Assembly (NCBI GenBank): GCA_018902545.1
Contig: JAHIQM010000016.1
Location: 248,001-312,000, forward strand
Direction of reading: 5' to 3'
From: Pseudomonadota bacterium
GTDB taxonomy: Bacteria; Desulfobacterota; Desulfovibrionia; Desulfovibrionales; Desulfomicrobiaceae
Length of the DNA stretch: 64,000 nucleotides
Shown in pieces: positions 9,643 through 37,135 of the stretch (its first letter is position 1; the number at the start of each line of letters is the position of its first letter). The position numbers and the translations under genes are program-made. Below the pieces are notes generated by a model that worked only from the letters and a program-made list of their open reading frames with translations, was not told the origin of the DNA and made no database searches.

Positions 9643-10851
<1,209 letters not shown>

Positions 10852-10876
10852 GATGGGGTCTCCTTGGGATTCGGAT

Positions 10877-10910
10877 AAAAAAAAAACGCGGTCAGTTTGC
10901 ACTGCCGCGG
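10877..10910 (-). terminator. trp attenuator terminator (segments 3:4)
   Basis: On the minus strand, CCGCGGCAGT-GCAA-ACTGACCGCG forms a stem with one bulge, followed at once by ten T's. It lies 26 bases before the trpB start, so transcription must read through it to express trpB. Confidence 0.92.
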
Positions 10911-10978
10911 TTGCTATTTCGCTCATCCTTTGACGGATTTCAGGTCAAGACGCATCCCACGGCATGTCTTTCATGCCG
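10904..10978 (-). promoter_or_regulatory. trp attenuator pause hairpin and antiterminator
   Basis: On the minus strand, CGGCATG-AAAGA-CATGCCG (10978-10960) is a perfect 7-bp pause hairpin (segments 1:2). Its 3' arm continues as GCCGTGG (10963-10957), which can pair with CCGCGGC (10910-10904), the 5' arm of the terminator, giving the 2:3 antiterminator with one G-U pair. Pairings 1:2 plus 3:4 and pairing 2:3 are mutually exclusive, as in classical trp attenuation. Segment 1 starts right after the two Trp codons of the leader ORF. Confidence 0.87.
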
Positions 10979-11017
10979 CCACCAAAGAAGGGAGATGGTC
11001 TTGGGGTTCGTATTCAT
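10940..11017 (-). CDS. trpL: trp leader peptide with tandem Trp codons
   Basis: This is a 25-codon ORF on the minus strand reading [18 protein letters not shown] and seven more residues to a TGA. Trp codons 12 and 13 (TGGTGG at 10984-10979) sit directly before the pause hairpin. A ribosome stalled there would cover segment 1 and free segment 2 to form the antiterminator. I see no good Shine-Dalgarno sequence before the ATG. A TTGACA hexamer at 11054-11049 could be part of the promoter but would leave a very short 5' end, so the start of the transcript is open. Confidence 0.82.
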
Positions 11018-11107
11018 GGGAAAAATGAGTGCCTGCGCACTGGGGGTTTGTCAAGGCATAATCCATCGGATACAGAGATGCGTCACGATCACCCAAGGAG
11101 TACATAT

Positions 11108-12864: not shown

Positions 12865-13058
12865 ACACAGTATCTAAGTTTTTTTATGCTCACGCGCAAC
12901 CCGGTAAACCTCACAACGAGGCGGACACTCCTCACCACCTTGACTTGCTCGCGGTTTTCATTCAGCAGCTTTTTTTTCAAGGCAGCGGACAAGTGGCAAC
13001 CCGCTTTAGAAATTCTCCCTCACCCCCGACACGAGAGTGCCGGGCGCACAGGTGGCTC

Positions 13059-13475
13059 ATGCTCAGTATCACCAAAGAATTCTCATTTCACGCGGCCCAC
13101 CGGCTGCATCTTCCCAGCCTCTCCACTGAAGAAAACGTACGCATCTACGGCAACTGCGCCAAACTCCACGGGCACACCTACAGGCTGCAGGTAACCCTCG
13201 CGGGCCTGCCCGACGAGACGGGCATGATCCTGCATTTCGGAACGCTCAAGGGCATTGTCGAACGGGAAATCCTGAACCGCTACGACCACGCGGACTTAAG
13301 CGACCTTGCCGAGTACCGCCATCTCCCGGCCACGGCGGAGAATATGGCCGAGCACATTTTCCGGACACTGGACCATGCCCTGGTCTCCAAGCGCTTCCGG
13401 CTGGAGCGGGTCGTCGTTTTCGAAACCGCAACAGCCTGGGCAAGCCGCTCCCGTGAGGAAAGCGACTATGCTTGA
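13059..13475 (+). CDS. queD: 6-carboxy-5,6,7,8-tetrahydropterin synthase
   Basis: The 138-residue T-fold enzyme converts dihydroneopterin triphosphate to carboxytetrahydropterin, the first committed step to queuosine. Zinc ligands are visible in FSFHAAHRL and KLHGHTY, and the catalytic Cys in GNCAKLHGH. ATG at 13059 is chosen because conservation starts at MLSITKEFSFHAAH. The upstream frame to 12945 is not family-like. It is the first gene of queD-queE-queC-queF; the start of queE overlaps its end. Confidence 0.93.
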   Translation: MLSITKEFSFHAAHRLHLPSLSTEENVRIYGNCAKLHGHTYRLQVTLAGLPDETGMILHFGTLKGIVEREILNRYDHADLSDLAEYRHLPATAENMAEHIFRTLDHALVSKRFRLERVVVFETATAWASRSREESDYA

Positions 13476-14091
13476 GGTAACCGAAATATTTTCCTCCCTG
13501 CAGGGCGAAGGCCCCTTTGCTGGCCGCCCGGCGGTCTTCGTACGACTGGCGGGGTGCGTCCCCCCGTTGTGCGAGTGGTGCGACACGCCGCAAGCTCTGA
13601 ACGGCGGAAAGCCCATGGCCGCAGAGGACATCGCGGGCGCGGTGGCCCAGCAACCGGAGCAGCTCGTCGTCATCACTGGCGGCGAACCTTTCCGGCAATG
13701 GGACGCGGGGCTTGAGCAGCTTGTCCGCACGTTGCTGGCTTCGGGCCGCAAAGTGCAGTACGAGACCAGCGGCAAGGCGGGCATTCCGGCAAACCACGGA
13801 GGCTTTGTGGTCTGTTCGCCCAAGCCGATCCACGCGCCAAAGCTGGCACCCGCCCTTGTCTCCCGGGTGGACGCCTTCAAGTTCGTGGTCGATGCGGACA
13901 TCTGTCCGGTGCTAAGCTTTGTGGATACCCACGCCATTGATCCGGCCAAGGTCTGGCTCATGCCACTGGGCGCGCTCCGGCAGGAGCAGATGCACCGCAT
14001 GGCGGCGATCTGGGATCTGTGCGTTCGGCATGGCTTCAACTTTTCTCCCCGCCTGCATATTCTGACCTTCAACGACCAGAAGGGGGTATGA
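13468..14091 (+). CDS. queE: 7-carboxy-7-deazaguanine synthase (radical SAM)
   Basis: The 207-residue radical SAM enzyme contracts the QueD product to CDG. The N-terminal motif FSSLQGEGPFAGRP and the GGEP motif (ITGGEPF) are typical. The cluster motif is C30-x4-C35-x2-C38 (GCVPPLCEWCDT), one residue longer than the canonical C-x3-C-x2-C; variant QueE motifs are known in other bacteria. It overlaps queD at the 5' end and queC at the 3' end (GTATGA). Confidence 0.93.
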   Translation: MLEVTEIFSSLQGEGPFAGRPAVFVRLAGCVPPLCEWCDTPQALNGGKPMAAEDIAGAVAQQPEQLVVITGGEPFRQWDAGLEQLVRTLLASGRKVQYETSGKAGIPANHGGFVVCSPKPIHAPKLAPALVSRVDAFKFVVDADICPVLSFVDTHAIDPAKVWLMPLGALRQEQMHRMAAIWDLCVRHGFNFSPRLHILTFNDQKGV

Positions 14092-14747
14092 TGGATGCCG
14101 TTATTGTGCTCTCCGGCGGCATGGATTCCGCCGTGCTCCTGTCCCATGAACTTTCCAAGGGACAACGCGTCGCGGCGCTAAGCTTTGACTATGGTTCCAA
14201 GCACAACCACTGCGAGTTGCCCATGGCCCGCGAAATTTGCCTCCGCCTGGGCGTTGAGCACAGGGTTGTCGCTTTGCCGTTCATCAACGAGCTGTTCACC
14301 TCCTCCCTGCTTCGCTCCGGCGAGGCCGTGCCCGAAGGCGCGTACGATGCAGACTCCATGAAAAGCACCGTGGTCCCGTTTCGCAACGGCATCCTCATCG
14401 CCATCGCCGTGGGTTACGCCGAATCCGTCGGGGCGGCGCGGGTACTCATCGGCTCGCATTCCGGGGATCACCACATCTACCCGGACTGCCGCCCCGAATT
14501 CAACGCGGCCATGAACAAGGCGGCCCGGCTCGGCACTGGCGACGCGGTGCGGGTGGACTTCCCCTTCGCCGCCATGGACAAGCGCGAGATCGGGGACCTT
14601 GGCCGTGCCCTCGGCGTCGATTTCGTCCGCACCTGGACCTGTTACAAGGGCGGCGAACTGCACTGCGGAATCTGTGGAGCCTGCGACGAACGCAAGTTCG
14701 CCCTGCGCCACGACCAGGGTCTGGACCCTACGCCGTACGCGAAATGA
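14088..14747 (+). CDS. queC: 7-cyano-7-deazaguanine (preQ0) synthase
   Basis: The 219-residue ATP-pyrophosphatase turns CDG into preQ0. The PP-loop is VLSGGMDSA at residues 7-15. The C-terminal zinc-binding set is CYKGGELHCGICGACDERKFA. Two ATG codons stand in tandem at 14088 and 14091; either may start. The overlap with queE implies translational coupling. Confidence 0.95.
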   Translation: MMDAVIVLSGGMDSAVLLSHELSKGQRVAALSFDYGSKHNHCELPMAREICLRLGVEHRVVALPFINELFTSSLLRSGEAVPEGAYDADSMKSTVVPFRNGILIAIAVGYAESVGAARVLIGSHSGDHHIYPDCRPEFNAAMNKAARLGTGDAVRVDFPFAAMDKREIGDLGRALGVDFVRTWTCYKGGELHCGICGACDERKFALRHDQGLDPTPYAK

Positions 14748-36915: not shown

Positions 36916-36980
36916 TTCAACGCCCCGTTTCACACCCCGCCTTGACACCTCCCCCCGCTTGTCCTAGCCAGAAACGAGTT

Positions 36981-37057
36981 TTTGCAGGGGTGGCGAGGAG
37001 CCTGAGATAATACCCGTTGAACCTGATCTGGATCATGCCAGCGAAGGGAATTGCAAG
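36981..37057 (+). promoter_or_regulatory. TPP riboswitch (THI element)
   Basis: The conserved parts of the thiamine-diphosphate aptamer can be read: AGGGGTGGCGAGGAGCCTGAGA, TACCC, GAACCTGATCTGGATCATGCC and AGCGAAGGGAA, closed by the P1 pair TTGCA/TGCAA. It lies 79 bases before thiM. The bases after it do not show a clear T-run hairpin, so control may be at translation. Confidence 0.93.
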
Positions 37058-37135
37058 ACTGACCGCCATCACCGGCAACCACCATTCCTCGCCTCCGCTG
37101 CCTCCACAACTCTTCCTGCAGTGTGAGGTGCCCCC

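Follow-up and report, generated by a model that had tools for sequence, protein, structure and literature searches.

Why would a gene for the tryptophan synthase beta subunit that stands apart from the trp operon carry a transcription attenuator of its own? The question arises from a stretch of 64,000 nucleotides (the window) from a genome of the Desulfomicrobiaceae, in the order Desulfovibrionales, for which a first-pass annotation made from the sequence alone had described a complete trp attenuator on the minus strand in front of a lone trpB. The trpL attenuator of the Escherichia coli trpLEDCBA operon combines a leader ORF with tandem Trp codons, alternative 1:2, 2:3, and 3:4 pairings, and a U-run terminator, and Rfam has a Trp leader family. 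The trpL attenuators of rhizobia have a leaderless leader mRNA and stand before trpE genes.

Results

Anatomy of the attenuator in the window

Reading of the minus strand from 11054 to 10849 places a trp attenuator 5' of trpB alone, and all of the parts named in the first-pass annotation could be read again from the sequence (Table 1). Hairpin 1:2 joins CGGCATG to CATGCCG over 7 bp (10978-10972 with 10966-10960, minus strand), and the antiterminator 2:3 pairs TGCCGTGG (10964-10957) with CCGCGGCA (10910-10903); the latter pairing is present as described earlier, with its length corrected from 7 bp to 8 bp when one G-U pair is counted. The region has the features by which a ribosome-mediated trp attenuator is recognized, namely, a leader ORF with tandem Trp codons, an intrinsic terminator between leader and gene, mutually exclusive 1:2, 2:3, and 3:4 pairings, and a downstream gene of Trp metabolism (trpB). 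Control of trpB alone, with no trpA nearby, had also been proposed and agrees with the ORF list, in which the 3' end of trpB abuts a convergent gene and its 5' side abuts a divergent gene. Near trpB, an ORF run at 12945-14747 (+) resembles by eye a queuosine-precursor cluster (queD-, queE-, and queC-like), and a TPP riboswitch (RF00059, 58.4 bits) lies at 36976-37069 (+) of the window.

Table 1. Features of the lone-trpB leader in the window and of two further putative leaders in the same genome
Feature	Coordinates	Strand	Remarks
TTGACA, -35-like hexamer	11049..11054	-	first base 37 nt before the leader ATG
Leader ORF	10940..11017	-	25 codons plus stop (peptide letters not shown); conserved in relatives
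Tandem Trp codons, TGGTGG	10979..10984	-	in the leader ORF; kept in relatives
Segment 1, CGGCATG	10972..10978	-	from sequence, folding, and covariation
Segment 2, CATGCCGTGG	10957..10966	-	alternative partners, segment 1 or segment 3
Segment 3, CCGCGGCA	10903..10910	-	alternative partners, segment 2 or part of segment 4
Terminator hairpin 3:4	10887..10909	-	CGCGG-CAGT/ACTG-(A)-CCGCG, 9 bp with one bulged A; covariation in relatives
Terminator T-run, ten T's	10877..10886	-	from sequence
AAGGAG, likely trpB ribosome-binding site	10860..10865	-	from sequence
Lone trpB	9643..10851	-	402 aa; TIGR00263, 598.7 bits against a cut-off of 392.45
Leader MTNISLNNSLYFFWYFYFSRACGLRGLL and terminator	L004:15727-15960	-	precedes the aro-trp supraoperon; reads YFFWYFYF
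tyrA end and terminator before trpE	L004:9198-11519 (contig C19)	-	TyrA ends WWWRKQHDAGGPAS; last codons can pair with the terminator arm

The 141-nt leader RNA folds at -48.2 kcal/mol, compared to a shuffled mean of -34.95 (z -3.55), and 1 of 200 shuffles was as good. When the fold was made without segment 1, the minimum-energy structure was the terminator and the centroid was the 2:3 antiterminator, at an unremarkable energy (z -0.43). Once a stalled ribosome hides segment 1, the 2:3 antiterminator would be favored by the order of synthesis. A consensus scan for promoters and terminators listed neither the terminator of the attenuator, which was probably missed because of its bulge, nor any promoter. 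In the window scan at gathering scores, no family of Rfam release 15 matched the attenuator, nor did any reach its gathering score in this region when matches up to E 10 were considered; the RybB (13.8 bits) and sX6 (7.9 bits) matches near the attenuator were rejected as not credible against a gathering score of 40 each.

Spread of the leader in the order

A covariance model, R1, was built from eight sequences (the window element and seven relatives) and holds no gene information. It matched 90 of 297 genomes of the order at E<=0.1, in 98 places. A lone-type trpB follows at a distance of less than 700 nt at 77 of these places, among them all 74 with an E below 1e-3. The lone-type trpB set comprises 132 genomes and came from a separate protein search cut at about 61% identity and up, with the G235:C10 trpB (58%, adjoining trpA) left out; the element was found upstream of this same gene in 77 of the 132. 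Given that R1 is blind to genes and yet places the element before the same gene, the association is more than chance. The 55 lone-type genomes with no R1 match include 40 in genus g12 and 7 in genus g24, and among the remaining eight, G119, G192, G235, and G252 have a WWW leader by ORF reading. No leader with a terminator was seen in those R1-negative lone-type genomes that were read, suggesting that a lone trpB does not need the switch.

The leader peptides diverge widely among the relatives, from MWWWPC, the shortest, to MKNVFTLTDGNWWWRS, while WW or WWW stays; in this reading of the loci, L224 had no trpB match. TTGAC occurs upstream of the Trp codons in all 77 loci examined. When the ATG and TTGAC pair nearest to 37 nt apart is taken at each locus, the first base of TTGAC precedes the leader ATG by 34-39 nt in all 70 distinct loci (duplicates dropped). 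Shine-Dalgarno-like 4-mers precede the leader ATG in 5 of the 70 loci, and in the window no such site was found 5' of the leader ORF; the leader mRNA is probably leaderless or nearly so.

Outside this setting, R1 matched the window's own genome and two others at E<=0.01 in a 395-genome sample of the phylum (drawn in part from the order), and both of the others are Trp leaders before other genes. Reading 20 of the 21 R1 places that do not adjoin a lone-type trpB (the place in G095 was left out) gave 5 tandem-Trp leaders before other genes, 4 places with Phe/Tyr-rich stretches judged by eye, and 11 with neither, which suggests that most weak R1 matches are chance. The plain pattern TGGTGG-N80-110-T7 was discarded as unspecific, given that it had 27 matches in the window's genome, both trp sites included, against 13 in the reversed control.

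Several of the other leaders are worth recording. In genus g33, FWWCWRH leaders stand before a TrpB2-type enzyme (PRK12391 in L276; L277 and L278 by likeness), which makes this another lone TrpB family with a Trp leader of its own. At L271 (G027), the Trp leader MKKLNFQTAALDFSWTGFWWWRSRICCGLKGAL precedes a substrate-binding protein of a TRAP transporter (NF037995), a hint that the transporter may be one for tryptophan or of an indole type. Two Trp leaders come from other orders of the phylum, MTIEQTKNIQLYWWWRSN before trpS at L253 (G419) and MLNKNINNRYWWWRWWRMEEFAVL before a DAHP synthase gene at L254 (G540). Leaders also precede phenylacetate-CoA-ligase-like genes at L274 (G232), L267 (G003), and L268 (G077), with L274 and L267, the two that were scanned, below curated cut-offs; one of these leaders has tandem Trp codons and two are Phe/Tyr-rich by eye.

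Covariation of the alternative pairings

The covariation alignment holds 71 rows, 68 of them distinct, and was fitted to the model, which favors its own pairs. For 1:2 and 3:4, 95.4% of cells pair, and double changes number 110, compared to 28.8 in shuffles (68 distinct sequences). For 2:3, 81.1% of cells pair in register, compared to 29-57% when the strands are slid, and 23 cells have double changes against 6.2 in shuffles. Counted by pair, two 2:3 pairs have double changes, which is no excess over shuffles (2.2), and the further pair types number six, below shuffles (7.1). One 2:3 column has U-A in place of C-G in 15 sequences; its segment 3 column also takes part in a 3:4 pair, which goes from G-C to A-U in 15. 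The 2:3 duplex is better than dinucleotide shuffles (p<=0.05) in only 33 of the 65 sequences kept once duplicates were dropped, and in the swap test (62 kept), segments with their own partners reached -15.7 kcal/mol compared to -13.7 kcal/mol with swapped partners. Given that double-changed 2:3 pairs are no better than in shuffles, the support for 2:3 comes from the co-changing column, the fixed position, and the swap test; in some WWW-type rows, segment 2 is a few columns out of register. Covariation is therefore strong for 1:2 and 3:4 and gives modest support for 2:3.

We considered that the hairpin could instead be a constitutive terminator, or one governed by an RNA-binding protein or a ligand in place of a stalled ribosome, and the terminator sequence does vary less across the order than the need to pair would by itself require. 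Such control is very unlikely, however, given that the tandem Trp codons persist in a leader ORF that otherwise diverges, that their distance from segment 2 is fixed in relatives, and that segment 3 has a second pairing partner.

Proposed mechanism

We hold with considerable confidence that a ribosome-mediated transcription attenuator turns on a one-gene transcript for a stand-alone TrpB when charged tRNA-Trp is low. Transcription would probably start at the leader AUG or no more than a few bases from it, and the leader would be read from a nearly leaderless mRNA. When Trp is sufficient, the ribosome would pass both Trp codons to the stop at 10940 and cover segment 2, upon which the 3:4 terminator would form and transcription would end before trpB. 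When Trp-tRNA is scarce, the ribosome would stall on TGGTGG and mask segment 1, which would let 2:3 pair, so that no terminator would form and trpB would be made. The lone TrpB would then join serine to indole taken up from the surroundings, as the gene content suggests. The sequences, the conservation and covariation of the element, and the correlations with gene content are what the data show directly; we infer the stalling, the termination, the start site, and the role of the enzyme.

Gene content and the role of the lone TrpB

The window's genome (G000) measures 3.7 Mb in 22 contigs and is 99.8% complete, and its lone TrpB is 94% identical to the TrpB of a Desulfomicrobium MAG. The first-pass annotation had left two roles for this protein, indole salvage or a split pathway, and had proposed a search for trpA elsewhere in the genome. 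That search found a trp operon on contig C19 whose last gene is trpA. Its genes run trpE, trpG, trpD, trpC, trpF, trpB, trpA (trpA and trpC named by Pfam, trpB by likeness, and the others by reading translations), and the operon trpB is 54% identical to the lone trpB. A lone trpB that completes a pathway whose trpA stands alone elsewhere was suggested by the lack of trpA in its neighborhood, but with trpA and another trpB together at the end of the C19 operon, the split reading is refuted for this assembly and keeps next to no probability.

Indole salvage, on the other hand, gained support. A search for trp genes in 22 chosen genomes, 14 of them without TrpA, gave eight that are at least 95% complete and have a lone trpB (G034, G048, G119, G180, G185, G192, G232, and G248; 95-99% complete, with G048 and G119 as single contigs). 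All eight keep the lone trpB with its leader and have no match for trpE, trpA, or IGPS (for G248, trpE was read as lacking from its absence in the trpE match list), and the single trpB of each at E<=1e-50 is of the lone type. The tandem Trp codons are kept in seven of the eight; G248 has one TGG there. On the strength of these genomes, we regard indole salvage as a well-supported role for the lone trpB, with the role of the enzyme itself read from gene content.

A tree of 49 TrpBs, for which 47 of 80 loci were used and trpA was sought with one tblastn query (E<=1e-4) in flanks of up to 3 kb, places the 34 rows with no trpA in their flanks on one side of a branch (support 86/79) and 15 trpA-linked rows on the other. 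Among 17 lone trpBs scanned from other phyla, 10 have a T-box (RF00230) that ends shortly before the gene, and one (Gemella, L039) has the Rfam trpB motif RF04312. T-boxes or leaders before lone trpBs are the pattern expected of a Trp-controlled indole-salvage gene in several lineages, which is not proof. In G245, a lone trpB is followed on the same strand, after about 300 nt, by a second gene for an aroA'-type aldolase (G245:C6:89737-92010).

The part of PMC11917138 available to us ties six residues, Res6 (E, E, T, S, A, and M), to the stand-alone activity of LBCA-TrpB, as a mark of stand-alone TrpBs of the LBCA/plTrpB kind. Mapped by eye on the alignment, the lone TrpB has D, D, N, S, F, and N at query positions 41, 47, 58, 192, 284, and 285, matching one of the six; the sequence thus does not show stand-alone catalysis, and the count is not diagnostic. 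The lone TrpB could be a second beta subunit that partners the operon TrpA, with the attenuator adjusting subunit supply and not free-indole salvage, given that TrpA is present in the same genome and that the protein is a full-length TrpB1-type (TIGR00263) with this low count of Res6 residues. We consider this role quite unlikely, however, since the eight near-complete genomes retain the lone TrpB with no TrpA match and the lone rows group apart from the trpA-linked ones, the genome's own operon TrpB being only 54% identical.

The aro leader and the tyrA tail

The lone-trpB leader would be one of three putative aromatic-sensing attenuators in a genome that had no match for TrpR. The second precedes the aro-trp supraoperon, whose first gene matches TIGR01949 (385 bits against 299). 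At 51 of 52 aro loci (30, 20, and 2 from three samplings), there is an ORF with at least five aromatic residues in 10, and 48 of the loci also have a terminator; the densest aromatic ORF was picked at each locus, which favors a find. Among the 47 genomes with a trpE match, 46 have Trp in the aro leader peptide, versus 1 of the 5 that lack such a match (Fisher p 9e-5), the exceptions being G148 (poly-Phe) and G019 (a fragmented assembly), and the codons of the leader seem to follow the pathways that a genome still has. We do not claim that two Trp codons in an aro leader compensate for an absent tyrA-trpE terminator, given that some terminator-bearing genomes also have two.

The third candidate lies within a coding sequence. 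In the window's genome, tyrA stands directly before trpE and ends ...QKALWWWRKQHDAGGPAS*, where TyrA reads ...WWWR...; behind it come a terminator of 10 bp and a run of eight T's whose first T can pair (z -3.27). Regions upstream of trpE were read in 61 genomes (the window's own and 60 chosen from 267, namely 11 from its own genus and one or a few from each other genus sampled), and TyrA was found there in 59. One exception, G003, had no TyrA next to trpE and a separate WLWWWL leader in its place, by our own translation. A terminator was called strong at -15 kcal/mol or better. Among the 59 regions, 38 of the 39 with a strong terminator have a run of at least three W and the other has two W, whereas the 20 with no strong terminator divide into 11 with at least three W and 9 with two (Fisher p 1e-4, uncorrected for kinship). 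A W run of at least three together with a strong terminator thus occurs in the window's genome and in 37 of the other 60, and late Trp codons in tyrA, a terminator before trpE, and a complementary arm after the Trp codons were all found.

The pairing itself was examined in 36 distinct sequences, in which the best pairing between the sequence 3' of the Trp codons and the 5' half of the terminator starts 14-19 nt after the last Trp codon, and 33 of the 36 beat dinucleotide shuffles at p<=0.05. In the swap test, for which 29 sequences were kept after duplicates were dropped and the window's own genus was thinned to two, segments with their own partners reached -21.7 kcal/mol compared to -16.5 kcal/mol for swapped partners (permutation p 5e-5); 25 of the 29 were better than the swap mean, with the own partner ranking first in only 5. 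In most cases, the antiterminator's 5' arm falls within the last tyrA codons.

We also weighed whether the Trp residues at the TyrA end serve the protein, with the terminator after tyrA as an ordinary operon boundary. All 59 TyrAs have at least WW, and this holds in 20 of 20 with no strong terminator before trpE (WW or WWW), some of which have trpE 5-8 nt later; the W residues may predate the switch or may also serve the protein. Nonetheless, a purely protein-borne explanation is unlikely. The longer W run goes with the strong terminator, the sequence 3' of the Trp codons pairs with the terminator arm at a constant position and prefers its own partner over swapped ones, WW is absent near the ends of all 18 TyrAs taken from other orders (a choice made among 60 matched genomes from outside the order), and PDB matches to TyrA stop at residue 221 or earlier, while the W run lies at about 244-246.

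The trp operon of the order is thus probably attenuated through the last tyrA codons, where three Trp codons near the end of tyrA would be the Trp sensor for the terminator between tyrA and trpE. We think it likely that these codons are both the Trp-sensing leader and the antiterminator 5' arm of the trp operon and that, with the aro leader and the lone-trpB leader, they make up a three-tier network of aromatic attenuation without a Trp repressor in Desulfovibrionales. Part of the TyrA sequence would then be set by the regulation of its neighbor.

Discussion

The window element shares with E. coli trpL the tandem-Trp leader ORF, the alternative 1:2, 2:3, and 3:4 pairings, and the U-run terminator. 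It differs in that it precedes one gene outside the trp operon, has no Rfam match, and has a leader mRNA that is probably leaderless; its leader stop also lies beyond segment 2, whereas in many relatives the stop comes right after WWWR. With the rhizobial trpL elements, to which we liken it by description, it has in common Trp codons, attenuation, and a leader AUG that would be at or near the transcription start, but the rhizobial elements precede trpE genes. The T-boxes (RF00230) before lone trpBs of Bacillota and Mycoplasmatota are likewise tRNA-sensing attenuators in front of a lone trpB of the same tree group, except that a T-box senses tRNA directly and the window element would do so through translation. 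The E. coli rph-pyrE attenuator senses UTP through polymerase speed, and translation of the upstream gene end decides termination. The proposed tyrA-trpE switch resembles it in that translation of the end of an upstream enzyme gene would decide termination before the next gene, and differs in sensing an amino acid via codons in place of UTP via polymerase speed. Lastly, the trpB motif RF04312, in the available part of PMC11109978, was found in Firmicutes and Fusobacteria, and its authors could not rule out a classic attenuator; like the window element, it stands before trpB and has a terminator, but its structure is different, and RF04312 had no match in the window.

Published expression data bear on both genes. 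According to the portion of PMC4162548 at hand, the D. hydrothermalis trpB DESAMv2_21414 falls by log2 -3.0 together with the aro-trp cluster at 26 versus 0.1 MPa, and by locus number it lies about 135 genes from that cluster; DESAMv2_21414 is presumably of the lone type. For 10 versus 0.1 MPa, the same source lists trpE, trpG, and trpD (-2.6 to -2.7), with tyrA, aroA, and pheA absent from the list and trpC and trpF absent from the table as well. The listing fits a break between tyrA and trpE, although absence from a significance table is weak evidence. In the consulted part of Song et al. 2005 (PMC1173090), the D. vulgaris genes aroA'-aroB'-pheA-aroF-tyrA-[trp operon] appear among putative attenuators taken from another group's database, and as printed, the attenuator symbol precedes aroA'. 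On the wider distribution of such regulation, the excerpt of PMC5343134 reports TrpR only in gamma-proteobacteria among the groups studied, and that of PMC3766115 holds that gamma-proteobacteria may be where amino-acid attenuators originated, with very few transfers. The accessible parts of PMC11109978, PMC8632094, PMC6429828, PMC545781, and PMC2965389 contain no trp attenuator of Desulfovibrionales. In the open-access literature, we found no report of an attenuator before the lone trpB or of a trp leader made up of TyrA codons; earlier notice in subscription papers is possible. The lone-trpB attenuator looks real and of a known kind, with a target and a spread that look new to the open-access literature searched, and we rank the tyrA-tail variant above it as the more novel part.

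In summary, attenuators for aromatic amino acids appear to be in use at three levels in genomes across this order of sulfate reducers. The lone trpB would be a salvage gene placed under the logic of a biosynthetic operon, which would account for the published RNA-seq data in which it is regulated together with the trp cluster. Leaders of this kind also suggest functions for the genes behind them, given that in relatives Trp leaders precede a TRAP-type transporter protein, a TrpB2-type enzyme, and trpS. The tyrA-trpE arrangement, if true, would represent a sensor for an amino acid that forms part of an enzyme's own coding sequence.
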